Below the pieces are notes generated by a model. That model had not been told where the DNA came from. It was given only the letters and a program-made list of their open reading frames with translations, and ran no database searches. Below are positions 5,516 through 20,190 of a stretch of DNA of 20,208 bases, piece after piece (the stretch's first letter is position 1; every line of letters starts with the position of its first letter). Made by a program: the position numbers and the translations under genes. The stretch is from a virus: the IMG/VR virus record IMGVR_UViG_3300030451_001805, positions 1 through 20,208 of that record; one strand, 5' to 3'.

Positions 5516-5998
5516 CTATACTTCGTGCCATTCCTTACCCTCGAATAGTAAAGCCTCTGCCTCTCTTCGTCTCACTAAACCCTCGTTTACCTTGCCATTA
5601 ACTTTGTTCCATCTTTGGATTTGGTGCGGTATGTCTGCCCAATCAACATGAGTACTGTTGAGAATTTTCAAAAGAGAAGAATTTTTAAGGTTCGTAGGGC
5701 CAAGATTAAACACCCATGATACCATCGCGTCGAATTGATTTTGTGTTAAATTACATTCTACCATTTCATTTATATATCCTTCATATTCCTCTAATTCATG
5801 CGCTAACAATTCTTCTGCCTCTTGCATGGTTATGGTCATATCATCTTCAACTGGACTACCGTCTATAAGTTTTAAGGAACCAAACCCTATGGTTTTTTTA
5901 TTAGCAGCGCATCTGTAAGATACAGCATCGCCTTTTGAATTTTTTGGACAACCCTCAAATTTTTTTATAAGGGCAATGCCCTCTTGTGATATTTGCAT
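5516..5998 (-). CDS. Endolysin, GH24 lysozyme (muramidase)
   Basis: 160 residues. It hydrolyses the MurNAc-GlcNAc bond of peptidoglycan at lysis. The GH24 catalytic pattern is visible: Glu15 in KKFEG, Cys30 in YRCAANKK at the position usually Asp or Cys, and Thr36 in KTIGFGS. The C-terminal NQFDAMVSWVFNLG and GLVRRREAE motifs are also typical. A nine- or ten-residue insertion (about 19-27) lengthens the first loop. There is no signal or signal-anchor segment, so it should depend on a holin. A longer reading from 6079 adds 27 residues encoded inside the nuclease gene and lacks support. ATG 5998 lies one base after the nuclease stop and has a GGGGAG site six bases upstream. Confidence 0.92.
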   Translation of the reverse strand: MQISQEGIALIKKFEGCPKNSKGDAVSYRCAANKKTIGFGSLKLIDGSPVEDDMTITMQEAEELLAHELEEYEGYINEMVECNLTQNQFDAMVSWVFNLGPTNLKNSSLLKILNSTHVDWADIPHQIQRWNKVNGKVNEGLVRRREAEALLFEGKEWHEV

Positions 5999-5999
5999 A

Positions 6000-6395
6000 T
6001 TATTCTCCCCATTTTTTGACTTTTGTTCCGCCAAAGTAATCGACGGCCAAATTTTCTTTTTTAAGTAATTCTGCCACATTTCCTTTCTCGCAAAATATAT
6101 CTCCCAGCACCCTACCGTATTTGTCGGTGCCGTAAGACTTTAAGGTTATATCACCTACCAACCATTCTTTCAACTTCTGTTTAGCAAGTAAACCTAGTTC
6201 TTTTTCTTTAGCTCGCTCTGGATATTTTTTAGTATTAATCCTAGATTCAGGCGTATCTATCGCATTGATTCGCACGGATTTATTGTGTAGTTGCACTGAA
6301 AATCCAAGATCTATAGTCTCTAAACGTACAGTGTCTCCGTCTATAACTTTTTTTAGTTTGCACTTATAGACAAAAGCATCGGGTGATTTAGCCAT
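6000..6395 (-). CDS. Staphylococcal-nuclease-like (thermonuclease) protein
   Basis: 131 residues, a nearly minimal SNase-type OB-fold. The residues that bind Ca2+ and catalyse cleavage in micrococcal nuclease have counterparts: Asp21 in VIDGDTVR, Arg42/Asp47/Glu50 in VRINAIDTPES, and Arg95 in KYGRVLGDI. It should therefore cut DNA or RNA to 3'-phosphates. No signal peptide is visible, so it would act in the cytoplasm or only after lysis. Lying between a holin-like gene and the lysozyme, it may degrade host nucleic acid late in infection or reduce lysate viscosity; that is inference. The start shares one base with the preceding stop. Confidence 0.88.
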   Translation of the reverse strand: MAKSPDAFVYKCKLKKVIDGDTVRLETIDLGFSVQLHNKSVRINAIDTPESRINTKKYPERAKEKELGLLAKQKLKEWLVGDITLKSYGTDKYGRVLGDIFCEKGNVAELLKKENLAVDYFGGTKVKKWGE

Positions 6396-6868
6396 TAGTC
6401 ATCGCCTTTATGTGACGCTCCAAAGTAAAAAGATATAATCGCGCTAGCCAAGCCACCTAAGTATCCTAATACTAAATTTATAAGTGCCTCACTGTTTTGC
6501 TCTGGTGGTTGTAGTGTTACTAAGAATATATAGCCTAAAAATCCAGCTATTGTTGCAACACCAATTATTCTAGCTGTCCAATCTTTACTAAACATACCTC
6601 TAGCGTTTTGCTTGTCTTGAGTTTCTAATCTGAAAACATCAACATCCAGCTCTTTCATTTGCACCTCAAACTCTTGTTCTGCTTTTTTAAGCTCTAACAT
6701 TTGTTCTGGTGTTGCATTTTGTATAGCTTGTTGAATTGATTTTTGGTCATTTGATACGCCTAGTACGCTTGCAATTTTAGACATTGCCATATTACCCATT
6801 GGACCACCAAGCGCTGTGCCTATGGTTGGAGCTACCGCACCTACTAAATTTTTTAATAATCCTTTCAT
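6395..6868 (-). CDS. Holin-like membrane protein
   Basis: 157 residues. An N-terminal Gly/Ala/Met-rich amphipathic stretch (1-40) is followed by a charged helix (about 41-95) and two predicted membrane helices (about 99-119 and 129-150), with a short charged C-terminus SHKGDD. This layout resembles the GTA/phage 3TM-type holin family, with FSKDWTARIIG just before the first helix. It would permeabilise the inner membrane to release the lysozyme encoded two genes downstream. The start overlaps the adenylate cyclase stop by four bases (ATGA), so it is cotranslated with the curli-like module. Assignment rests on topology and neighbourhood rather than a diagnostic motif. Confidence 0.7.
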   Translation of the reverse strand: MKGLLKNLVGAVAPTIGTALGGPMGNMAMSKIASVLGVSNDQKSIQQAIQNATPEQMLELKKAEQEFEVQMKELDVDVFRLETQDKQNARGMFSKDWTARIIGVATIAGFLGYIFLVTLQPPEQNSEALINLVLGYLGGLASAIISFYFGASHKGDD

Positions 6869-8622
6869 ATAGATTCCTTTACTGTATATATGTTAAGTTT
6901 CTTTTTTTTACCCTTAACATTAATAGGTTTTAGTGATTTTAATGCAAATTTGCAATTTTTTGCAATATTTTCACCAATAAGTATATCAACACCAACCTCT
7001 TTTGTTGCTGACTCTAGCCTTGCTGCTGTATTTACAGGATCGCCTATAGCTGAATAATCAAACCTAGATTCAGACCCCATATTTCCAATACATGCGAAAC
7101 CAGCTTGAGTCCCTACGCCCACTGCAACTGGAGTAGAAAGTGTTTTGTTTAGTTCAGCTATGCCTTTTTGTATATCTATTGCAGCCTGAACGGCTTTTGT
7201 TTCGTGATCCTCCAAATCTAAAGGTGCTCCAAAAATAAACATACCTGCATCACCAATAAATTTATCTGTCATACCACCTAATTTTTGCACGGCATTTACT
7301 TGCACAGTTAACGTCTTGTTCATAATATCAGTTACTTCTTCTGGAGATAGTTTTTCTGATAAAGCAGTAAATCCTCTTAAATCTGTAAAAAGAAACGAAC
7401 AATATTTTTTTTCTCCACCAAGTTTTAATAAACTTGGATTATCTTGTAATTGTTTTACTTGTCGTGGATCTAAATAATGTTCAAATTGTTTTTTAATTTG
7501 TTGTCTTAGTTTGTATTGCTCTCTAAACCTAACGTAAAAAATAGCGCTACCTTGTATAAACTCTGATACAAAAGTCCAAGAAAAATCAACAAGATAACCA
7601 GTTTTTATAATATAAACACCGCTTATAAAGGTTGCGGCCATGAATAAACCGCCAAATATAAGTGATTGTGTCATACCTGCATAACCAAAAATAATTGAAA
7701 CTATTATTAAGCACGAAGCAAACATAATTAATTCAGCTGCTATAGCCCAATCTGGGATATAAGGTGAGTCTTGTATAAGTATTGATTCTGCAAGTGCTGC
7801 TTGCACTTCATGAGGCGAAAGTAAGCCAACGGGGGTTGCAACGGTCGGAAACACGCCTGGAGCATTGACAGAAACAAAGACAAATCTATGGGCAACATTG
7901 AGTTCCTGTAAATTTGTTTGTGGTGTGTCCACCCAAGAGATCCATTTGCGGCCTAGATTGTCTACATCAACGGGAGGTAAGCCTTGTACAGTAATCTGTC
8001 GCATACCATTATCATCGCCTTTTATAATGTAGGTTTTTGCACCAGCTAATACTTTTAAAACTTCCGTTCCAAAAGATGCAACAAAACCATCTGGTGTTTG
8101 CATGAGTAAAGGCATGCGCCTTACAAGATTATCTATTTCAGTGGGAGCCGTAGACAAACCTTGAGGAACATCTATGAATATTGGGTCGTTTGCAACAACT
8201 CCCTTTGCCATAATACCATTAATATTTTCACCAAGTAAAACTGTTCCGCTTGTTGGTGGGTATGTACCGTTATCATATTCAAACATCGTTAAGATGCTTG
8301 GACTATAATCTAAGGCCATTAAAAACATTTCATCGCCACCAAAACGATCTGGATTTGGTAAAGATATTACCCAACCAACACCTATAGCGCCTGCCTCTAA
8401 AATATCCATGTGTATTTGTGCTAACTCTTGTCTTGGAAAAGGCCAGCCACCAGATTTTTGAATATCCTCTTGCGTGATGTTTAGCACTACAAAATTACCA
8501 CTTGGATCGTATTTTTTAACAAAAGTATCGAAAGTTTGTAATTTTAATATTTGCAAAGGGTATAACTGAAACAACAGTGGTAAGGCAAGTATTATAAATA
8601 CTATGAATATTACTTTTTTCAT
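6865..8622 (-). CDS. CHASE2-domain membrane adenylate/guanylate cyclase
   Basis: 585 residues. An N-terminal signal-anchor helix (3-24) precedes an extracytoplasmic CHASE2-like sensor domain (about 30-285; ITQEDIQKSGGWPFPR near 49-64 matches the CHASE2 W-P-[WF]-x-R signature). Several membrane helices follow (about 289-370), then a short linker and a class III cyclase domain (about 402-585). The catalytic set is intact: metal-binding Asp414 (FTDLRGF) and Asp458 (FIGDAG), purine-selecting Lys454 (DKF) and Asp528 (AIGDPVN), and transition-state Asn531 and Arg535 (NTAARLE). The Lys/Asp pair predicts ATP to cAMP. It would sense something outside the inner membrane and raise cAMP in the infected cell. 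It overlaps FecR-like and holin-like genes by four bases at each end. CHASE2 cyclases are familiar in bacteria, but one inside a phage late operon is unusual. Confidence 0.93.
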   Translation of the reverse strand: MKKVIFIVFIILALPLLFQLYPLQILKLQTFDTFVKKYDPSGNFVVLNITQEDIQKSGGWPFPRQELAQIHMDILEAGAIGVGWVISLPNPDRFGGDEMFLMALDYSPSILTMFEYDNGTYPPTSGTVLLGENINGIMAKGVVANDPIFIDVPQGLSTAPTEIDNLVRRMPLLMQTPDGFVASFGTEVLKVLAGAKTYIIKGDDNGMRQITVQGLPPVDVDNLGRKWISWVDTPQTNLQELNVAHRFVFVSVNAPGVFPTVATPVGLLSPHEVQAALAESILIQDSPYIPDWAIAAELIMFASCLIIVSIIFGYAGMTQSLIFGGLFMAATFISGVYIIKTGYLVDFSWTFVSEFIQGSAIFYVRFREQYKLRQQIKKQFEHYLDPRQVKQLQDNPSLLKLGGEKKYCSFLFTDLRGFTALSEKLSPEEVTDIMNKTLTVQVNAVQKLGGMTDKFIGDAGMFIFGAPLDLEDHETKAVQAAIDIQKGIAELNKTLSTPVAVGVGTQAGFACIGNMGSESRFDYSAIGDPVNTAARLESATKEVGVDILIGENIAKNCKFALKSLKPINVKGKKKKLNIYTVKESI

Positions 8623-9740
8623 CCAGAGCTTTGCGTTATGTTGATTGTTGAGTCAGCCGTGCCATTGACTTGTATCACCTTAGAAACTCCATCTTGCGTA
8701 AATATTATGTTGTATGCTTGATCGCTGTTTACCAAAACCTGCGCTCTTTGATTTACCATACGCATAAATTTTATTTGACTACCTTGTATTATAGTTGTTA
8801 CCTGTGTTTCTACATCTTGTCCAAAGTTTGTTCCGACTAATTGAATTCCACTTGAAAAATCTGCTAGATTATCCTCGTCTTTTACATCAAGCTCATCTAG
8901 AACATCAAGTAAATCTTCTAACAGATTTACGTTGAGTAAGTCAATGTCGAGCTCTGAAAAGTCAATATTATCTTCTTCATCCCAAATATCCTCATCTGAT
9001 AAAAAATCTATATCTAAATCAGTAAACTCTAAGTAATCCGCTTGTTCTGTTTGTGTTTCTTCATTTTCTACAAGTTGTTCTTTGGGTGGTGAAACAATAA
9101 GCATGTTATCTATAAAGTTTAAATCTATGTCTAAGGTTACTGGTTTTGTTGGCGCAACGTCATAAGCAGAAGTTGTTGTTGCTTGAAATGGTTTATTTAG
9201 CACTTGTTGTCCCATAGCTGTTTGCACCACTATTTCGCCACTTGCGTCTCCAAACTCGTTTGGTAATAAAATTATTAATGATTTACCAGTAATATCGATA
9301 GTGCAAACAAAATCTGTACCTTGCACAAAAATCTGAGAGCTAGGAGTAGATAAGGTGATGTTTTTTTTGTTAAGTTTATTTACATTACCGCTAATAAACC
9401 GAATGGTGCCGCTAGCAAACTGAAGAGCCATTTTAGATTTATCTGGGTTGGGATCATAAATATATTCATCAATAAGAAGTTCAGAGTGTTCAGTAAGTTT
9501 TACCGTGGACTCATCAAGAAATGTAATAGCTATTCGACCTGCGCTAGTTTGCACATTGTCCAAAGAGTTTATGTCAAAGTCTAAGGTCGCGTCATACGGC
9601 TCATCGCGATAGACTCTACCGTAACCTGTTAATTCTGTTATATCACCTATAGAATCAGCATGAAGTGGTGGTACCACCGTCATTTTGAATAATACAGATA
9701 TTAGAATTACTTGTATTTGCAATAACTTGTAACCAATCAC
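8619..9740 (-). CDS. Exported FecR-domain protein
   Basis: 373 residues. Residues 1-29 look like a signal peptide (Lys5, hydrophobic core about 6-18, possible cleavage after LHA). Residues about 55-175 carry a FecR-type beta domain: VQTSAGRIAITFLDESTVKL-like strands, a GTIRFISG strand, and LSTPSSQIFVQGTDF, the characteristic TP-x-[AS]-x-[IV]-x-V-x-GT core. A highly acidic Asp/Glu/Leu stretch spans 222-295, followed by a C-terminal beta region. FecR domains are periplasmic sensor or surface-anchor modules. In bacteria, FecR-domain proteins are often neighbours of CHASE2 cyclases, as here. No ECF sigma factor is nearby, so classical FecIR signalling is unlikely. The signal-peptide start forces an 86-base overlap with the curlin-like gene; the alternative ATG 9683 would lose the signal. 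Confidence 0.85.
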   Translation of the reverse strand: MIGYKLLQIQVILISVLFKMTVVPPLHADSIGDITELTGYGRVYRDEPYDATLDFDINSLDNVQTSAGRIAITFLDESTVKLTEHSELLIDEYIYDPNPDKSKMALQFASGTIRFISGNVNKLNKKNITLSTPSSQIFVQGTDFVCTIDITGKSLIILLPNEFGDASGEIVVQTAMGQQVLNKPFQATTTSAYDVAPTKPVTLDIDLNFIDNMLIVSPPKEQLVENEETQTEQADYLEFTDLDIDFLSDEDIWDEEDNIDFSELDIDLLNVNLLEDLLDVLDELDVKDEDNLADFSSGIQLVGTNFGQDVETQVTTIIQGSQIKFMRMVNQRAQVLVNSDQAYNIIFTQDGVSKVIQVNGTADSTINITQSSG

Positions 9741-10383
9741 GTGCTAATGTAGATGCCTGGGTAATGTTCATAGTGTTGCTGCTACCGTCAAGATCTAAAT
9801 TAAAGTATGCCGAGGTCGCCGCCGTGTTACCGCTATAACCACTACCTGTAAAATTAATAGTATTTGAACTACCGTTTATATCCATATAGTTGGTTGCGTT
9901 TTCATAGTCAATGTCAAAATCTAACTCATTACTATCACCCAGTATTATCCAATCTAAATTAAGATAGGAAGAGTTAGCGTTTTCACCTATTTTTATATCA
10001 GCCTCGTTACTTGAGCCTGTTACATCTATATTTAGATCAACATAGTCAGCAGTAATTAAGCCAGTAGAGTTCATCAAAACATCCCAAACGTTGCTATCGC
10101 CATCAAACTCAAAGAAACCTGTAAAGTTATCACCGTCTATAGCATCGGATCTAAATATATTGCTTGATCCGATTTGATTGATGTCTAATGCCATGGTTGT
10201 ACCGTCTAGGTCAAGAGCAGTCATGGTACCAGATACCGCAGATGTGCCACCAATAAGGTTTGATGATCCTAACTGTTCAAGATCAATAGTAGCGTTTGAA
10301 CCGCTTTGATCTACGTAGATTTCATTGTCCGCAAAAATTGAAAGTGAGAAAAAAAGTAAAAATAAATATTTATTCATTTGCAT
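9655..10383 (-). CDS. Curlin-like secreted repeat protein
   Basis: 242 residues. Residues 1-18 form a clear signal peptide (Lys5, hydrophobic 6-17, cleavage after IFA). The mature part repeats a motif ending in G-[SD]-S-N about every 22-33 residues: Asn30, 42, 75, 98, 126, 152, 174, 203 and 228. Each is flanked by alternating-hydrophobic strands and often preceded by LDLDG, FEFDG or MDING turns. VDQSGSN, LEQLGSSN and INQIGSSN recall the curlin consensus (Gln-x-Gly-x-x-Asn). It is much more acidic than CsgA and largely lacks the second Gln. The C-terminus has two Cys (230, 242). It lies directly after csgG, overlapping it by 14 bases, so it is the likely substrate of that pore. ATG 10377 (Met3) is an equally possible start. 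Confidence 0.82.
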   Translation of the reverse strand: MQMNKYLFLLFFSLSIFADNEIYVDQSGSNATIDLEQLGSSNLIGGTSAVSGTMTALDLDGTTMALDINQIGSSNIFRSDAIDGDNFTGFFEFDGDSNVWDVLMNSTGLITADYVDLNIDVTGSSNEADIKIGENANSSYLNLDWIILGDSNELDFDIDYENATNYMDINGSSNTINFTGSGYSGNTAATSAYFNLDLDGSSNTMNITQASTLARDWLQVIANTSNSNICIIQNDGGTTTSC

Positions 10384-11215
10384 ATTGCCAAAAATTTCGT
10401 TCGCGACCTTGTTTGATAATATCTACAATACCAATTTCTATAGCCGATTGCAAAGCGATAGACTTACTTTCATTCATGGCATTTCCTGTTTCAAATTCTA
10501 CTAACTCTGTATCGTTTGAATGAAACCTAAATACGTCAGATGATAAGCCGACTGATAAAATTGTTCTTGTTGTAAGATTTTCTAACAATATTTCACCAGT
10601 GCTTACAGATACAACACGTATTGAAACAAGCACTGTATCTTCACGATACTGTTTGCTGGCGCCGACGCCTAAATATCTGGCGCCTGCACCGCCGCTAGTA
10701 AGGTTAGTATTATAATCGACAATACCTCCTTCTATAATAACGCCAGCAAACAACAGGGGAAGTTGTTTTGTTTCATCTTCAAACTTTTCTCTAGTTGATC
10801 TAATAATCTGCCTTTCACGTGTGATGTGATCGATACCGCCTCGCTCTACTACGCGAAAAAAACCAGATTGTTTTAATGCTCTAATTAAATAAACCTCTGG
10901 TGCTTGTGTCATGGCTGTGCTGAAATTAGCGTAGCCATCCACAGATTTTCTTTGACCTGTGTAATCTGCAAACTTATATACTGCTGCCACTGGTTGTACT
11001 TCGGGTACGGGTATTTCTTGTATTTCTTTAGTAATAGGTTCGTTTATAAAAGCGTCTTTAGAAAAACACTTAGCCTTACTTACTATTGATACGACATCTT
11101 TATAATCACCCTCTGGGTTTGTAAGACATGGAGAAATTAGTTTGGTGTGCGAAACGCAACTAGCTACCAAACCCAAAGTCGCCAATAGGAATGGTAATCT
11201 CAGTAGTTGTTTCAT
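10370..11215 (-). CDS. csgG: CsgG-family curli secretion pore lipoprotein
   Basis: 281 residues. A lipoprotein signal ends in the lipobox VASC (Cys20). CsgG forms a nine-subunit, 36-strand outer-membrane pore for curli subunits. Family landmarks are clear: AVYKFADYTGQRK (78-90), the constriction-loop region ANFSTAMTQ (96-104), ERGGIDHITRERQIIRS (124-140), GGAGARYLGVG (175-185) followed by RVVSVSTGEIL (200-210), and VFRF near 228-231. Asn97 and Phe98 match the pore-lining Asn55/Phe56 of E. coli CsgG. The Tyr51 position seems displaced, with a Tyr at 95. The segment between the lipid Cys and the core is about 20 residues longer than in E. coli, with extra Cys30 and Cys50. The start lies inside csgF (56-base overlap), because the lipobox needs it. 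Confidence 0.95.
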   Translation of the reverse strand: MKQLLRLPFLLATLGLVASCVSHTKLISPCLTNPEGDYKDVVSIVSKAKCFSKDAFINEPITKEIQEIPVPEVQPVAAVYKFADYTGQRKSVDGYANFSTAMTQAPEVYLIRALKQSGFFRVVERGGIDHITRERQIIRSTREKFEDETKQLPLLFAGVIIEGGIVDYNTNLTSGGAGARYLGVGASKQYREDTVLVSIRVVSVSTGEILLENLTTRTILSVGLSSDVFRFHSNDTELVEFETGNAMNESKSIALQSAIEIGIVDIIKQGRERNFWQYANE

Positions 11216-11705
11216 CTAGCGTGTTATAGATAGTTAGGGTTATGTAAGTCCCGTCGCTGGACCAACTAATGATGTTGTCAAATAATGTAAAAGATCCTGT
11301 GGTTGATGGATTCTCGCCAAAAAGTTGCTCTACTATTTGTCTGGAAATTTGTGCAAAAATCCGTGACTCGAGATTACGAGTAAATCTGCTTATCACAGAA
11401 TTTTCCTCATCACGTTTTCTTTGTTCTTCTAGGGCCTTGAGATCTGCCTTTAGTTGCTCACGTCTTGAAAACTCTTGTTGTTCGATGGTCAAATAATGTG
11501 CACTCTGTCCAATGCCAGAAAAACTTGGAGATTTGAAGTGAAATTTAATCTCATCTGAATTAACGTTTTGTGCAAGGATTAAAGCAAACATAATAAAACC
11601 AATAAAAAAAGCCCATACGGCTATTCGTGTTTTTTCTATTTCTTCTTGTTTTTTAATCTTTTCTTTGGTCATTCCTGTCTGCCTTTGCAATTTTGTTACT
11701 GTCAA
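11160..11705 (-). CDS. csgF: CsgF-like curli assembly factor
   Basis: 181 residues from ATG 11705, or 170 from ATG 11672. A charged N-terminus (Lys/Glu) precedes a membrane helix (about 28-46). Residues 53-64, IKFHFKSPSFSG, match the CsgF N-terminus (T-F-x-F-x-N-P-x-F-x-G) that plugs into the CsgG constriction. A helical middle (about 70-130), charged and longer than in E. coli CsgF, ends in RNLESRIFAQISRQIVEQLFG like the CsgF helix. The C-terminal beta part (138-174) ends TTTEITIPIG, like CsgF's T-S-T-I-Q-V. In E. coli CsgF caps the pore on the cell surface and helps nucleate fibres. The long charged stretch before the hydrophobic helix is odd for a signal peptide and could be a membrane anchor. 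Confidence 0.85.
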   Translation of the reverse strand: MTVTKLQRQTGMTKEKIKKQEEIEKTRIAVWAFFIGFIMFALILAQNVNSDEIKFHFKSPSFSGIGQSAHYLTIEQQEFSRREQLKADLKALEEQRKRDEENSVISRFTRNLESRIFAQISRQIVEQLFGENPSTTGSFTLFDNIISWSSDGTYITLTIYNTLDETTTEITIPIGDFGFGS

Positions 11706-12003
11706 TCAGCTGTGGTACACCTAGTATAGTCTTAATAAGTGTATCTTGCCTAATTATTTCATTATCTAAACTGCGTATTCTATCTATCAATGCTACCAAA
11801 ATACCATGTTGAGAATCAAGTTTTGTGCCGAGCCTTTCTTCTAGTGCTGATATTTGTCCCTCTACTTTTTCATCAACTGTGTCTAGTTTAGTTTCCATGC
11901 CGTCAACAATTCGCATGATAAGTTTATAAATAAACCAGCCTAGACCTATTGCTGCCGCTATAGGAAATCCAACCTCTTGGATTAAAGTTACTGCTGAATC
12001 CAT
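11653..12003 (-). CDS. Small membrane protein with coiled coil, holin-like
   Basis: 116 residues. The N-terminal hydrophobic helix (about 11-31, GFPIAAAIGLGWFIYKLIM) is followed by a long amphipathic helix or coiled coil (about 34-95) and a charged tail. The GFP[IV]A-helix-then-Lys/Asp-coil layout resembles small phage proteins of the YvrJ or BhlA/UviB type, some of which act as holins. It lies immediately downstream of an XhlA-like gene and overlaps csgF by 20-53 bases depending on the csgF start. It could be a second lysis protein or a membrane anchor for the curli-like apparatus. The holin idea is inferred from topology. Confidence 0.6.
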   Translation of the reverse strand: MDSAVTLIQEVGFPIAAAIGLGWFIYKLIMRIVDGMETKLDTVDEKVEGQISALEERLGTKLDSQHGILVALIDRIRSLDNEIIRQDTLIKTILGVPQLIDSNKIAKADRNDQRKD

Positions 12004-12004
12004 A

Positions 12005-12187
12005 TTAGATCAGCTCTGCTATAACGATGGCTCCAACTATAAAAGGGTAAACAGCCCAAATCATGTTTTCTAATTTATCAAACCTTTTAGATCCATCTTC
12101 AAGACGCTTATCTATGCTTTTATACAAAGCTCTACACTCTCTTTCATGTGATTCAATTTTGTTTAAAGCGTCTTTTACTGTTGCCAT
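12005..12187 (-). CDS. XhlA-like coiled coil with C-terminal membrane helix
   Basis: 60 residues. Residues 1-40 are a charged, heptad-like helix; residues 41-58 (ENMIWAVYPFIVGAIVIAEL) form a C-terminal membrane helix. This tail-anchored architecture is that of haemolysin XhlA and similar phage proteins paired with holins. The neighbour one base downstream has the opposite arrangement (membrane helix first, then coil), so the two may pair through their coils. The start codon shares its A with the TAA stop of the preceding gene (TAATG). The function is inferred from architecture. Confidence 0.65.
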   Translation of the reverse strand: MATVKDALNKIESHERECRALYKSIDKRLEDGSKRFDKLENMIWAVYPFIVGAIVIAELI

Positions 12188-14150: not shown

Positions 14151-16631
14151 TTAACTCCTATTTGCCTCTAAAACACCACTATAATTTGCTGCCCAAGCAC
14201 TTAAAACTATTCTTGGACCTGTTGAGTTAGCTGAGGTTGCTAAAATTTGTATTTGCATAGTAGTAGTGCCACCTAAATCATTTAAAGACCAAGTAATACC
14301 AGCTCCTCCACTAGGATTTTCTTCATACTTTTGTACTGTTGCTAATGTACCATTACCTAGTATTGAAAAACCATAAGCAACATTTCCATAATTATGATCG
14401 CTTTGGTCTGAATCTATTTTGGAGCAATGTGCAACAATACTTGCTGGTTGCCATTCAGATGCACTAGCTGTCAAATAAAAAACTATACCTTCAGATTGTG
14501 CATTGTCAGCAGCAGCCATTAAACAACCACCTGTATTAGTTGTAGCAGACCCAAAACAAAGTCCACCATTACCTGTAGCCGAAACAGTTCTTCCAGAACC
14601 ACCTCCACGACCTGATACTATTTCTAAAGCACTTCCTGTAGCTACAGTAAATCCCATAGTGTCTGTGCCTTGGTGTGATGTAATGAAAGACCTGTTAACA
14701 TCATCTTTATCGCCCATGTTTATAGTACATGCAGCATTTGTTCCTGCAACCATGCTCATGCTACAACTTTGTGATGAATTGAAATTTCTTTGTAATATTA
14801 AAACTTCGCCACCATCAAATGTTGGAGTTCCTTCTGCGTTAGCATGAACTGCATGGATTCCACCAGATACACAACCAGGAGAAGTTGTTCCCACTCCAAT
14901 TGATCCTGAACTATCAATACGTGCTTTTTCAGATAATGTGACTGCTGCTCCTGCACTACCGCTAGCGTGTGTAAAAAATTGGTGATTACCAGCTTCTTGT
15001 CTGTAAGCTGAAGATTCATTAGCTTCAATGTACGCAAAAGCACCTGTGTCAGAATCAACATACATATTATCTGTAACAAAAGTACCATCGAGACCATGAA
15101 CTCCTGTAGCATTTTCACTTATTACTGAACCTTTTTGACCTATAAAAAGTTGTGTCCAACCAGTATGTGTATCGGTAGGTGGCGTAGTGCCCAAACCTAT
15201 TGCACCAGTGCTTGTTACACGCATTTTTTCTGAATTTCTAGTAAAGAAAGTTAAATCATCTGTAGTACAACCTATAAAATTACCTTCGTTAGTATTAGAG
15301 TCAGATATTTTTAAGAAAGTATTTGCAGTAGTTGATGTTAAATGTAAGACTGTATTTGCTGAAGAACCACCATCAATTTCTAAAGGAGAATCAGGACTTG
15401 TAGTTCCTACACCAACACGACCTGAACTATCTATCCTGACTCTCTCCGCTCCTGCTGTATTAAAACCAATTTCATTAGCAGCAACTTCATTAATGTATGT
15501 ATCATTACCACCATCAAGATAAAGAATCTTTGTAGGTTGTAATATTAAATCTGTATCAACCCTAATATCACCTGTAACATGAAGCATTTCAGCAGGACTT
15601 GTAGTTCCTATACCAACATTTCCTGCATCTGTAATAACTAATCTTTTTGTGCCTTCATCTGTTTGTAGGGTAAGACCACCAGACCCAGATGCTTTTATGT
15701 CCTCACCTATTATGTTGCCACCAAAAGTTGCACTTGAATTAAAAGTTGCTGCACCTGCTGCTGACATATCAAAAGTAAGTGCATTAATATCGCTTCCACC
15801 ATCATTACCAATAATAGTGAAATCTGCGTCAGAAGTAGAAGCAGTTATACTGGCGTTTCCACCTGCCATAACTAAGTCTGGAGTAGAATCTAAATTAAAT
15901 GTGTATCTGGTTGTACCACCATCTTTCATACTTATAGTTGAACCATCAGCGTCAAGAATAATGTCATCAGCAGAATCAATTATTATGTTTTCATTAGCAC
16001 TACCTGCTATAAGTAAATTATCATCAGCATCATTGCCAATAGTATGACTATCACCAAAAGTTATAGTTCCTGTGACTCCTAGAGTTCCAGATATATCTGC
16101 GTTACCGTTCATATCAATAGTAGTAGCGTTTATTTCTATTTCAGTATCAGAAACTAAATCTAAAACTCCGTCTGCTGATTGGTGGATGTAAGTTCCAGAG
16201 TCACCAAACTGTAGTTGTCTAGTGCTATTTAATAAAATACCTGTATCTGCAACGTGAGTGAGGGTGGTGTCTTGATCGTCACCTAAATTAATTACAGCTG
16301 CATCTGCTAAAAATAAATCGCTAAATTCTAAAGAGCTTGTTCCTAATGCCGCTCCGTCACTAGCATCTGGTACAAAAGCTGTAGTTGCAGTAATCGTTGT
16401 GCCTTGAATCGTGCTTGAACCTGTCAATGCTCCACTGACATTTAGTGCGTCAACCGTCGTTGTGCCTGCTAAGTTTAGATCGGTGAAAGCGTCTGCTACA
16501 GCAGCACCAGAGCCAGCTCCGTCTAAATAAACTGCTTTAACGTCACCAGCTGGTATCGTAACGTTTGATCCTGTGCCTTGAGATATTATTATATTTTGTG
16601 AACCTGTGGTTGCATTTTCAATGAAGTGCAT
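14151..16631 (-). CDS. Tail fibre protein, main part downstream of a frameshift
   Basis: 826 residues from the first ATG in this frame, but that ATG is probably not a true start: it has no proper ribosome-binding site and the frame continues upstream with fibre-like sequence. The chain is Gly/Ser/Thr/Asp-rich beta sequence with parallel repeats. It includes a GTTITATTAFVPDASDGAALG-type segment in pieces, several [VI]G[VIL]GTT[SP]P motifs (GNVGIGTTSP, GRVGVGTTSP, GAIGLGTTPP, GSIGVGTTSP), and a C-terminal portion rich in Cys, Ala and Gly (about 590-826). The repeats are typical of marine phage fibres that fold as trimeric beta structures binding the host surface. No protease-type C-terminal chaperone domain is evident. 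With its N-terminus restored, the protein would be about 910 residues. Confidence 0.85.
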   Translation of the reverse strand: MHFIENATTGSQNIIISQGTGSNVTIPAGDVKAVYLDGAGSGAAVADAFTDLNLAGTTTVDALNVSGALTGSSTIQGTTITATTAFVPDASDGAALGTSSLEFSDLFLADAAVINLGDDQDTTLTHVADTGILLNSTRQLQFGDSGTYIHQSADGVLDLVSDTEIEINATTIDMNGNADISGTLGVTGTITFGDSHTIGNDADDNLLIAGSANENIIIDSADDIILDADGSTISMKDGGTTRYTFNLDSTPDLVMAGGNASITASTSDADFTIIGNDGGSDINALTFDMSAAGAATFNSSATFGGNIIGEDIKASGSGGLTLQTDEGTKRLVITDAGNVGIGTTSPAEMLHVTGDIRVDTDLILQPTKILYLDGGNDTYINEVAANEIGFNTAGAERVRIDSSGRVGVGTTSPDSPLEIDGGSSANTVLHLTSTTANTFLKISDSNTNEGNFIGCTTDDLTFFTRNSEKMRVTSTGAIGLGTTPPTDTHTGWTQLFIGQKGSVISENATGVHGLDGTFVTDNMYVDSDTGAFAYIEANESSAYRQEAGNHQFFTHASGSAGAAVTLSEKARIDSSGSIGVGTTSPGCVSGGIHAVHANAEGTPTFDGGEVLILQRNFNSSQSCSMSMVAGTNAACTINMGDKDDVNRSFITSHQGTDTMGFTVATGSALEIVSGRGGGSGRTVSATGNGGLCFGSATTNTGGCLMAAADNAQSEGIVFYLTASASEWQPASIVAHCSKIDSDQSDHNYGNVAYGFSILGNGTLATVQKYEENPSGGAGITWSLNDLGGTTTMQIQILATSANSTGPRIVLSAWAANYSGVLEANRS

Positions 16632-17630: not shown

Positions 17631-19370
17631 TTATTCTTCCTCAAATATATTTAGTGTGTTTGGGTTGTAGTTTTTTGTAAATTTGTGTAAACTGGTATTG
17701 ATGGAAACTTTAGAGACATTATATTTTTCTTGGGAGCGATCACCAGCTGTCATTGTTGATGTCACTCCAGAAAAAAGCGCTGGATTCATATTGCCAGTCA
17801 CAGAGATTGAGCTTGGTTGGAGAGAGGCTACGCCAGACCAAGTAAAAGATTTCTTTGTTGACGGCTCTAGATTATCAAAGTCCGAGTTTGAAAACATGTT
17901 CGGTGTCATTGGCGACAATCTGCCAGACTTACCAGCACTTACATAACCGCCAGAAAAAAACCTTTCTACAACATCTTTAAAAAACTCTGGATCTATGTCT
18001 TTGCCCGCTGCCTCAAATATTTCTTGCATAGTTTTTTCTAACCTTAGGCCCTCTGCTTTTATTTTTTTGATGTCAGTGCCGTCGGGTAATCCAAAATTAG
18101 TTTTTCTATACGCCTCATAAAAACCGTGTGCTTTATCTGCTGCGTCTAGCATAGGCTGAGTCACTATACCTATTTCACCTATAATTGTTTCGCCGTTTGG
18201 TCCTGTAACCTGAACGTTAAGTTTTCTATCTAAGTAACCAGATTTTTTCATCAATACTCGTTCGCCGTCTACCGTTGGAAATAATTTAGCTATGGCCTCT
18301 GCCGCTTGTTTTTCTTGTTGCGGTGTATTTACCACAATTCTTGTTCGTATTGGATCTGTTATTTGTGAGAAGTCACCATCATATTTGGTCATAACTTTTT
18401 CAATCGTACGTGGCATAAGTTTCACTTCGCCTACAGGAAAGCCAGTGGCCTCATCTATTCGTCCGATTTTTTTGCCGCCCACGGGATTAAATCCTTTGCC
18501 TAAATTTAAACTTTCACGCACGCCGTCAATGGCGCTTTGAAATTGTGGATTTAGTCTTAAGGCTCTATCAAAGAGTTGCTCTGCACTTGTTATGTCGCCT
18601 TGGTGTGCATTAAAAGTAAATTTAAACTGTTGCTCCATTTTATTACCAAGTTGTCTTACAGGTGACTCAAAGGTGGGATTGCCTAAGGTTGGTAATAGTT
18701 TCGACGCATCTGCTTGTCGTTTTACGTTTTTATTTCTTTTTCTAATAAAGTCAAAAGTATTGTATTCTTGTAGGCTATCAAAAATTTTCACGGGTATTTT
18801 TGTGGTTCCAGCCGATTCAAGAGCATCTAATGTTGCCTTACCTCCAAGTTGCTCAAACGTACCATCTGGTTTTTTTAACACCTCTATTGGCTGTCTTTTT
18901 TCGACTGTTACTCCCTTATAAGAAGATCCGCTCGCTGATTTTTCTAATAGTTTTTTAGCCTCATCTAGACGTTTTGCCTCTGTTTTTACAGGTTGGCCCT
19001 CTATATCCTTTGGCTTGGTTATGTTTTTAGAATCAACCACAGCATCGGCTTGCTTGGTGTCTATGCCCTTTAACAAAGATTTAGGTCCTCTAAGTAAATC
19101 ACCTATCAGAGGTATTGCGCCTAATGCTGATAATCCAGCAATACCACCAGCTATGGCAGCTTGTTTAAATCTACCCTCTTTGATATCGCGTGCAGCGTCT
19201 CTGCCATATTTGCCCGCAGCTGCAATATCCATAGCCATGCCAGGCGGTGTGAATCCTGCTGCAATCTGTGCAACCAAGGGTACGTTCTCCTCGTAGCCTT
19301 CAACAGCAATATCTAATAGATCTTTGTCAGCTGAACCGCCTTGTTGGAATATATCAACATCTTCGTACAT
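17631..19370 (-). CDS. Large phage protein with ParB-like and RelA/SpoT-like domains
   Basis: 579 residues. Residues 30-100 are Gly/Ala/Ile-rich with hydrophobic stretches (AAIAGGIAGLSALGAIPLIGDLL), like the pre-toxin or membrane-interacting segments of polymorphic toxins. Residues about 155-200 (PIEVLKKPDGTFEQLGGKAT, then LDALESAG, IPVKIFD) resemble a ParB/sulfiredoxin-like fold. Residues about 315-425 resemble a RelA/SpoT nucleotidyltransferase. There, GDFSQITDPIRTRIVV carries Asp339 and Arg344, SGYLDRKLNV carries Tyr379, GEIGIVTQPMLDAADKAHGFYEAYR carries Glu399 and His415, matching D-x-x-x-x-R, GY, E-x-Q-x-x-T and H-x-x-Y landmarks. It might make an alarmone or pyrophosphorylate a nucleic-acid target, or be an inactive scaffold. 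A role as ejected effector or tail component is inferred from its place before fibre genes. ATG 19370 lacks a ribosome-binding site. Confidence 0.75.
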   Translation of the reverse strand: MYEDVDIFQQGGSADKDLLDIAVEGYEENVPLVAQIAAGFTPPGMAMDIAAAGKYGRDAARDIKEGRFKQAAIAGGIAGLSALGAIPLIGDLLRGPKSLLKGIDTKQADAVVDSKNITKPKDIEGQPVKTEAKRLDEAKKLLEKSASGSSYKGVTVEKRQPIEVLKKPDGTFEQLGGKATLDALESAGTTKIPVKIFDSLQEYNTFDFIRKRNKNVKRQADASKLLPTLGNPTFESPVRQLGNKMEQQFKFTFNAHQGDITSAEQLFDRALRLNPQFQSAIDGVRESLNLGKGFNPVGGKKIGRIDEATGFPVGEVKLMPRTIEKVMTKYDGDFSQITDPIRTRIVVNTPQQEKQAAEAIAKLFPTVDGERVLMKKSGYLDRKLNVQVTGPNGETIIGEIGIVTQPMLDAADKAHGFYEAYRKTNFGLPDGTDIKKIKAEGLRLEKTMQEIFEAAGKDIDPEFFKDVVERFFSGGYVSAGKSGRLSPMTPNMFSNSDFDNLEPSTKKSFTWSGVASLQPSSISVTGNMNPALFSGVTSTMTAGDRSQEKYNVSKVSINTSLHKFTKNYNPNTLNIFEEE

Positions 19371-19401: not shown

Positions 19402-20190
19402 CTATTCGTGAAGGCCTTGGAACTTACGCTTGAGTATTCTTTGCACTTTATGGAAGGGAAAGTCCTCGTAGCCTGGATGCGAACTTTGAATCTGTTTAGC
19501 TATTTTTCTCGCTCCAAGTCCCTTAGCTCTGAGTGCATAGATATGTTTTAACACTGCTTGCTCCTCTGGTATAGGCACTAACTTGGTTCTACGTCTGCTA
19601 CCAGAGTCATCGTATTGCTTTTCATAACCAAAGGGTGTTTGTCCTCCGATTGAGTAGCCTCGCTCTGCATAAACAAGTTTACCGCCGTTCAGCCTAGACA
19701 TAATCATTTCTCTCTCTATCTCAGCGAACTGAGCCATATTCGTAACAAGCTGTTGGTTAGCTATCCTAGTCATATCCATTTTTGCCTCAAGACCAGTCTT
19801 TTCTTTTTCTTTGGGTAACACCACTGGTATGTCTGCAAACATATCGCAGAAGTAAAGTGTAATACCAGTGTCCTCTAGAGTAGGAATCATGTTGACCATT
19901 TCTAAAAAGGATCTTGCAAGTCTATCTAGTTTGGTTGCTACTATCACGTCATTCGCATCCATAGTATCTGTCAGCTCTCTAGAGCCTGGTCGCTCTAATA
20001 AAGGTTTCATACCGCTAATACCAGCGTCGGTAAAAAACTGATCGACTTTGCGACCACCATATTTATTGGCTACAAACTCCTCAATCGACTTCTTTTGCTC
20101 GTCTAGTGAAGAGCCGTCTTTGACCTGTTGCTCAGATGATACTCTGATATAGCCATAGATATTGTTTACTTGTTTTCTTGGTTCAATCAT
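19402..20190 (-). CDS. Serine recombinase (resolvase/invertase family)
   Basis: 262 residues. The resolvase catalytic domain (about 10-165) shows the nucleophile Ser18 in GYIRVSSEQQ and the KLDRLARS motif (87-94), with Asp89, Arg90 and Arg93 conserved, plus QFAEIEREMIMSR on the long E helix. It forms a 5'-phosphoserine link to DNA. After a GGQTPFGYEKQ linker typical of larger serine recombinases, residues about 200-262 hold a helix-turn-helix-like DNA-binding part with LGARKIAKQI. It is larger than Gin/Hin (about 190 residues) but far smaller than phiC31-type integrases. It could integrate the phage, resolve dimers or invert DNA. No inverted repeats around the fibre genes were noticed. Confidence 0.9.
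   Translation of the reverse strand: MIEPRKQVNNIYGYIRVSSEQQVKDGSSLDEQKKSIEEFVANKYGGRKVDQFFTDAGISGMKPLLERPGSRELTDTMDANDVIVATKLDRLARSFLEMVNMIPTLEDTGITLYFCDMFADIPVVLPKEKEKTGLEAKMDMTRIANQQLVTNMAQFAEIEREMIMSRLNGGKLVYAERGYSIGGQTPFGYEKQYDDSGSRRRTKLVPIPEEQAVLKHIYALRAKGLGARKIAKQIQSSHPGYEDFPFHKVQRILKRKFQGLHE

Follow-up and report, generated by a model that had tools for sequence, protein, structure and literature searches.

The virus record IMGVR_UViG_3300030451_001805 (hereafter the window, i.e., the whole stretch of 20,208 bases) carries terminase, portal, endolysin and tail-fibre genes together with a curli (type VIII secretion system) module that includes a gene for a class III cyclase with a CHASE2 sensor. 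It is a further member of the curli module published for pelagiphages by Wittmers et al. 2022 (PMC9599517). New here are the CHASE2 identity of the cyclase, a corrected active site, a substitution in the Melnitz-like cyclases, a near-perfect linkage of the genes in the loci tested, a hint of exchange between sensor and catalytic halves and, as the most surprising part, a receptor gap for the expected product, cyclic adenosine monophosphate (cAMP). The genes of the run are the following:

5516..6079, minus strand: phage lysozyme (endolysin), Pfam Phage_lysozyme E 9.5e-36
6000..6395, minus strand: SNase-like nuclease, Pfam SNase E 6e-10
6395..6868, minus strand: small membrane protein, weakly holin-like (GTA_holin_3TM E 0.019, 15.9 bits, below the cut-off of 24.8), overlapping the cyclase gene by 4 nt
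6865..8622, minus strand: CHASE2-class III cyclase, 585 aa, ATG start, one open frame
8619..9740, minus strand: FecR-domain protein, Pfam FecR E 1e-8, 4-nt overlap with the cyclase gene
9655..10383, minus strand: curlin-repeat protein (CsgA/B-like), Curlin_rpt E 0.0044 and CsgB E 0.0019, both below cut-off
10370..11215, minus strand: CsgG outer-membrane curli pore, Pfam CsgG E 9.5e-45
11160..11705, minus strand: CsgF, Pfam CsgF E 3.1e-15
11653..12003, minus strand: small protein preceding CsgF, with a hydrophobic segment followed by a coiled-coil-like part

Every pair of neighbours overlaps in the minus-strand run CsgF-CsgG-curlin-FecR-cyclase-holin-like-SNase-lysozyme, and CsgF, CsgG, curlin, FecR and cyclase stand in the order of a curli module on one strand, with a curlin match that is below cut-off; the counterpart of the curlin gene in phage HTVC008M is annotated as curlin-associated. 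The same order, CsgF-CsgG-CsgA/B-FecR-(second curlin)-cyclase, is given in the passages of PMC9599517 drawn on here, which report the curli module, FecR and adenylate cyclase included, from myovirus pelagiphages as well as from those of the HTVC023P type, name cAMP as the product, present evidence for ocean spread and expression, and assign the module an alphaproteobacterial origin. These passages also place a histidine kinase before CsgF, whereas the two small open reading frames ahead of CsgF in the window (11653-12187) had no histidine-kinase match in Pfam. The main text of that paper contains neither the term 'CHASE' nor the term 'catalytic'. Curli genes are discussed by Zaragoza-Solas et al. 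2020 (PMC7029224) and in the Melnitz paper (PMC9004378), in both cases without the word cyclase in the main text, and no other report of such phage cyclases was found in a literature search whose coverage left out most subscription journals.

Two phages with larger genomes and baseplate genes, HTVC008M (NC_020484, 147 kb) and Melnitz (MZ577097, 142 kb), likewise have a gene annotated as cyclase. It lies downstream of the genes for CsgF, CsgG and curlin and of a FecR gene that is labelled FecR in Melnitz but hypothetical in HTVC008M, and an extra gene, annotated as curlin in Melnitz, lies between FecR and cyclase in both. Their cyclases are 33% and 29% identical to that of the window, respectively.

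The original prediction had called the cyclase phage-encoded, and the phage genes of the record agree with this. The large terminase subunit is 62.7% identical to that of 023Pt_psg01, 59.3% to that of HTVC027P and 58.1% to that of HTVC023P, while the portal is 49-52% identical to the portals of the same three phages; judged by these two proteins, the virus is nearest to, and is classed here with, the HTVC023P-type pelagiphages. HTVC027P and HTVC023P were both isolated on Pelagibacter HTCC1062, and from these phage relatives the host is presumably a Pelagibacter relative as well. A window-like module with a cyclase 67% identical to that of the window is found on a contig (L244) of a 'Candidatus Pelagibacter' metagenome-assembled genome (MAG).

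Domain architecture and active site of the cyclase

Pfam CHASE2 matches residues 11-307 of the cyclase (E 5e-23, 82.4 bits, cut-off 26.3) and Guanylate_cyc residues 406-582 (E 3.1e-19, 69.7 bits, cut-off 21.9), and because both are far over their cut-offs the matches are not due to chance. Hydropathy gave a single N-terminal transmembrane (TM) segment and a later hydrophobic block at 289-340. The protein, modelled by AlphaFold with a mean predicted local distance difference test score of 90.6, can be divided as follows:

residues about 4-22: TM segment
residues about 25-290: periplasmic CHASE2 domain
residues 289-380: hydrophobic TM block and long helix
residues 404-585: cytoplasmic cyclase domain

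A CHASE2 domain flanked by TM segments and N-terminal to the output domain is the layout of a CHASE2 receptor cyclase, and the extracytoplasmic sensor that had been predicted is supported by both hydropathy and model. The modelled catalytic domain was superposed on S. platensis CyaC (1wc1; Z 26.0, 1.6 Å, 182 residues aligned) and P. aeruginosa CyaB (3r5g; Z 25.9, 1.6 Å, 182 residues aligned), two cellular enzymes with the same catalytic fold, in a comparison that covers the catalytic domain only; catalytic-domain matches filled the structure-search lists, and the CHASE2 fold was hardly probed.

Two metal-binding aspartates plus a transition-state asparagine and arginine make up the class III catalytic set, and a Lys plus Thr/Ser base-selecting pair is the rule for ATP-using class IIIb enzymes. 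The six residues named in the original prediction (D414, K454, D458, D528, N531, R535) are all present at the numbers it gave, and D414, D458, N531 and R535 complete the class III set. The proposed base-selecting pair of Lys454 and Asp528 stood in its first half only: position 524 is aligned with Thr and 528 with Arg in CyaB, the corresponding residues in the guanylate cyclase Cya2 (2w01) are Gly and Ala, and D528 itself sits in an 'IGD' turn. The alignment with these solved cyclases rules out Asp528 as base selector and points to S524 as the partner of K454, which gives the class IIIb pair. CyaB, whose site combines Lys with Thr, has Lys at position 454 like the cyclase of the window, and so does 6fht, an engineered chimera deposited as an adenylate cyclase; Cya2 has Glu there. 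The Lys/Ser site therefore most likely belongs to an ATP-using, IIIb-type adenylate cyclase. Ser at the selecting position, like Thr, is a predictor of a response to bicarbonate. For Thr, this predictor is described in the passages of PMC3383692 drawn on here.

Conservation was followed in an alignment of 282 cyclases, composed of 81 window-like sequences, the HTVC008M-like and Melnitz-like sets, 28 bacterial and 11 MAG-contig sequences. D414, K454, D458, N531 and R535 are kept in 81/81 window-like cyclases, in which position 524 is Ser (62/81) or Thr (19/81). The full set is kept in all 80 HTVC008M-like sequences covering the site (the 81st is cut short), and the catalytic set in 28/28 bacterial relatives and in 9 of the 11 MAG-contig cyclases, the other two being too short or having an unread letter at 454. 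The metal-binding Asp pair, Lys and Arg are also retained in the 80 Melnitz-like sequences that cover the site (again with the 81st cut short), but in 79 of these 80 the residues that correspond to Ser524 and Asn531 of the window's cyclase are Asp and Ser. The catalytic residues have hence not been lost in all relatives, with N531 replaced in one viral clade, and the prediction of an intact, ATP-using class III site is supported for the window-like cyclases. We consider catalytic competence of the enzyme very probable.

Linkage, selection and origin of the module

Neighbouring genes were assigned by phmmer with proteins of three phages (E 1e-4), and each locus scan comprised the best 80 loci, which share contigs between scans, so that the counts below are not independent. 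FecR was located at most 3.2 kb upstream of the cyclase in 43/43 window-like, 33/34 HTVC008M-like and 52/59 Melnitz-like loci (after omission of 37, 46 and 21 loci, respectively, that were too short); in the seven Melnitz-like misses it is present on the locus, either farther away or on the opposite strand. Seen from CsgG, both FecR and cyclase follow downstream in all 55 window-like loci (25 others too short), and in the HTVC008M-like loci FecR follows in 18/18 and the cyclase in 17/18 (62 others too short), the one miss (L443) ending just before the cyclase that is seen on the same contig as L095. The linkage of FecR, cyclase and curli genes is fixed in the loci tested, and the suggested link of the cyclase with the FecR and curli genes is supported. 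In L181, L182 and L183 the cyclase is encoded on the strand opposite the curli-FecR genes and not at the end of the run. Neither FecR nor cyclase was found in three bacterial curli loci, a sample too small for a conclusion.

The ratio of nonsynonymous to synonymous substitution rates (dN/dS) between the window and 12 relatives was 0.075-0.144 for the whole cyclase and 0.06-0.23 for the catalytic domain; the cyclase is under purifying selection, catalytic domain included. Proportions of nonsynonymous (pN) and synonymous (pS) differences were distributed unequally along the protein. Relative to L001-L003, the sensor had pN of 0.023-0.025 and pS of 0.32-0.42, and the catalytic domain pN of 0.101-0.105 and pS of 0.60-0.63, while relative to L005-L012 the catalytic pN was 0.088-0.109 and the sensor pN 0.128-0.209. 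Identity in 60-residue segments was 92-98% to L001/L003 up to residue 390 and 76-92% past it, and 43-83% to L005/L011 up to residue 390 and 83-98% at 391-570. This pattern hints that sensor and catalytic halves have been swapped by recombination at the conserved linker.

In a cyclase tree of 77 of the 282 sequences (with viral members sampled randomly group by group, midpoint-rooted and with bacteria of one class only), the viral and MAG-contig cyclases are split from the 28 bacterial ones by a branch with full support in the Shimodaira-Hasegawa-like approximate likelihood ratio test. A scan of genome contigs for the cyclase gave 10 loci; where curli genes are present as well, the contig is probably of phage origin and was placed in a MAG by binning. 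The cyclases of L247, L249, L250 and L253 are without curli genes in the available DNA, which for L247 includes almost no upstream sequence. Those of L249 (5787-7715) and L250 (6920-8848) are CHASE2 cyclases on contigs of one MAG labelled Rickettsiales, with no curli genes nearby, and in the midpoint-rooted tree they branch off basally on the viral side. In L246 and L252 the cyclase is split in two pieces.

Elsewhere in the window, a GroES-like co-chaperonin is encoded at 380-820, and a 579-aa protein at 17631-19370 has a weak RelA_SpoT match below cut-off (16.7 bits vs 27) and found no match in a PDB sequence search. A serine recombinase or invertase (19402-20190) is present on the same contig as the tail-fibre gene (14151-16631); inverted repeats that could go with it were sought in the window and none was convincing. 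Promoter and terminator scans of the window stayed at chance level.

A proposed envelope relay and its alternatives

We propose, with about even confidence in the statement as a whole, that the protein is an active, homodimeric, ATP-specific IIIb adenylate cyclase serving as the inner-membrane read-out of a phage envelope relay, whose activity, dimer, FecR-CHASE2 contact, signal and any cAMP reader are the parts that we infer. In such a relay the curlin subunits or the CsgG/CsgF pore would be the outer-envelope input, the periplasmic FecR-domain protein would touch curlin or pore, and CHASE2 would receive this state and pass it via the membrane block and the long helix to the catalytic domain, which would set the cAMP output during infection.

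The FecR protein of the window consists of a hydrophobic N-terminal segment, a FecR domain and a beta-rich C-terminal tail, the final 70 residues of which are modelled as beta strands, and the model of its FecR domain has a match in 6ovk, the cell-surface signalling domain of PupR (E 5.9e-5, target-normalised template modelling score 0.52). FecR genes were also searched for around 40 bacterial CHASE2 cyclases, taken from the best-ranked unique genomes after G001 (the MAG with L244) in the class of G001 (class taken as Alphaproteobacteria, family as Pelagibacteraceae), several of them on short contigs. They occur within about 6 kb in 11/40 loci vs 0.39 expected from genome-wide counts, an expectation that is somewhat low, as at most 6 FecR were scored per genome; the thresholds also differed, at 1e-8 in genomes and 1e-6 in loci. 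Since FecR is found near bacterial CHASE2 cyclases too, an existing FecR-CHASE2 signalling pair may have been joined to the curli pore in phages.

Parts of such a relay have counterparts in bacteria. The S. meliloti CHASE2 cyclases CyaD1, CyaD2 and CyaK increase their activity upon a plant protein sensed via the outer-membrane barrel NsrA, but this system is bacterial, has the CRP-family receptor Clr, and is described without mention of curli or FecR in the passages of PMC13001267 drawn on here. In the Burkholderia BiofilmReg operon, a periplasmic FecR-LysM gene lies beside a CHASE2 receptor and is tied to biofilm, although its output is a histidine kinase and its location a bacterial chromosome, unlike the phage cyclase (PMC5192318, in the part cited).

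Several observations weigh against the relay. N531 is replaced by Ser and position 524 by Asp in 79/80 Melnitz-like cyclases (L164-L243; L215, the exception, keeps Ser524 and Asn531), and the gene is nevertheless retained. The FecR tail resembles the phage curlin ends weakly (hhalign probability 69 and 22). No FecR was present within about 6 kb in 29/40 bacterial CHASE2 loci, and of the 11 bacterial neighbours 5 lay upstream but in the opposite orientation, 5 shared the strand of the cyclase but lay downstream of it, and 1 was upstream on that strand, so that a single pair has the arrangement of the phages. FecR is the next-upstream gene in 2/26 bacterial CHASE2 cyclases (27 scanned, one of them a phage-module control), and the notion that it regularly takes this place was dropped. 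Because the bacterial arrangement is loose, we lowered our estimate for the FecR-to-CHASE2 coupling by a small step, to slightly better than even.

The remaining objection concerns the reader of the signal. In 147 genomes, some possibly incomplete, of the family of the MAG carrying L244, a match to the cyclic nucleoside monophosphate (cNMP)-binding domain PF00027 was found in nine (the three strongest in frames of 125-254 aa) and none in the other 138. PF00027 was also absent from HTVC008M and Melnitz (0/2) and from 29 hand-picked virus records (0/29; mostly long contigs, many incomplete, HTVC008M included), in a search that did not extend to other folds such as GAF. On the side of synthesis, no class I cyclase was detected in the 147 family genomes, and class III matches were limited to three, two above cut-off and one below. 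CsgG was found in two genomes, the same two that have the above-cut-off class III match, and both contigs with this match carry the phage module. The phage cyclase is therefore seemingly the sole one in the cell, and the phage seems to bring it into a cell that is mostly without a known cAMP receptor, i.e., as an orphan output.

As the host lineage seems to be without a cyclase of its own and mostly without a known cNMP-binding domain, a phage-encoded reader may be proposed. The module would then be a self-contained second-messenger circuit foreign to the host, with cAMP read by a phage protein of an undescribed receptor class, an extension of the relay that we regard as speculative and improbable; in window-like phages the small membrane protein of 6395-6868, whose gene overlaps that of the cyclase, would be one candidate for this reader.

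The original prediction was that the phage could raise host cAMP, which, taken as a hijack of the host, would mean the switching of a host CRP-type regulon. An intact class III site, the nine family genomes with a cNMP-binding match and the S. meliloti CHASE2 cyclases, which work via a CRP-family regulator (PMC13001267, passages as above), would suit this reading, but it did not fare well against the 138 genomes without such a match and the confinement of above-cut-off class III cyclases to two phage-module contigs, by which most hosts seem to be without a cAMP circuit, and we consider it unlikely. Overall, what had been observed in the sequence was right save for one residue, and the interpretation is partly supported.

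A somewhat less probable reading is that the protein acts as a signalling scaffold by its contacts, with catalysis being secondary or lost in at least some clades. The Asn-to-Ser replacement in Melnitz-like cyclases and the failure to find a receptor in phages, virus records and most family genomes are consistent with this, while the core residues kept in 161/161 window-like and HTVC008M-like sequences covering the site and the purifying selection on the catalytic domain argue against it.

Still less probable is a timer of lysis, in which cAMP or another cyclic nucleotide would gate the adjoining small membrane protein like a Pycsar-type membrane effector turned to phage use. The overlap of cyclase, holin-like, nuclease and endolysin genes in one run could be read in this way, as could the holin-like or lysozyme gene that lies at most 2 kb downstream of the cyclase in 43/57 window-like loci and the matches of the cyclase domain to PycC profiles (best E 7.4e-25). 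However, such lysis genes, identified by similarity to the window proteins, occupy this place in 0/64 HTVC008M-like and 0/69 Melnitz-like loci, the PycC matches are expected from the common fold, the holin-like match does not reach its cut-off, and a scan of the FecR and holin-like neighbours gave no Pycsar effector match. The least probable alternative is a different product, cGMP or a cyclic pyrimidine nucleotide, which the PycC matches and the guanylate cyclase activity of the CHASE2 cyclase Cya2 (stated in the cited part of PMC5995499) would allow, but K454 with S/T524 resembles the adenylyl cyclase CyaB (Lys/Thr) and not Cya2 (Glu), and Lys454 is found in all sequences covering the site in the three viral groups.

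The envelope relay thus remains our preferred reading. The Asn-to-Ser change of the Melnitz-like cyclases provides a natural variant for comparison. With both HTVC008M and its host HTCC1062 available as isolates, the function of the phage curli genes, and the way in which cAMP could act in cells with no known receptor for it, are approachable in culture. The hosts of pelagiphages include some of Earth's most abundant cells. If the relay is true, these phages would equip cells that seemingly have no cAMP circuit with one, tied to the curli pore in small HTVC023P-type as well as in large HTVC008M- and Melnitz-type phages.

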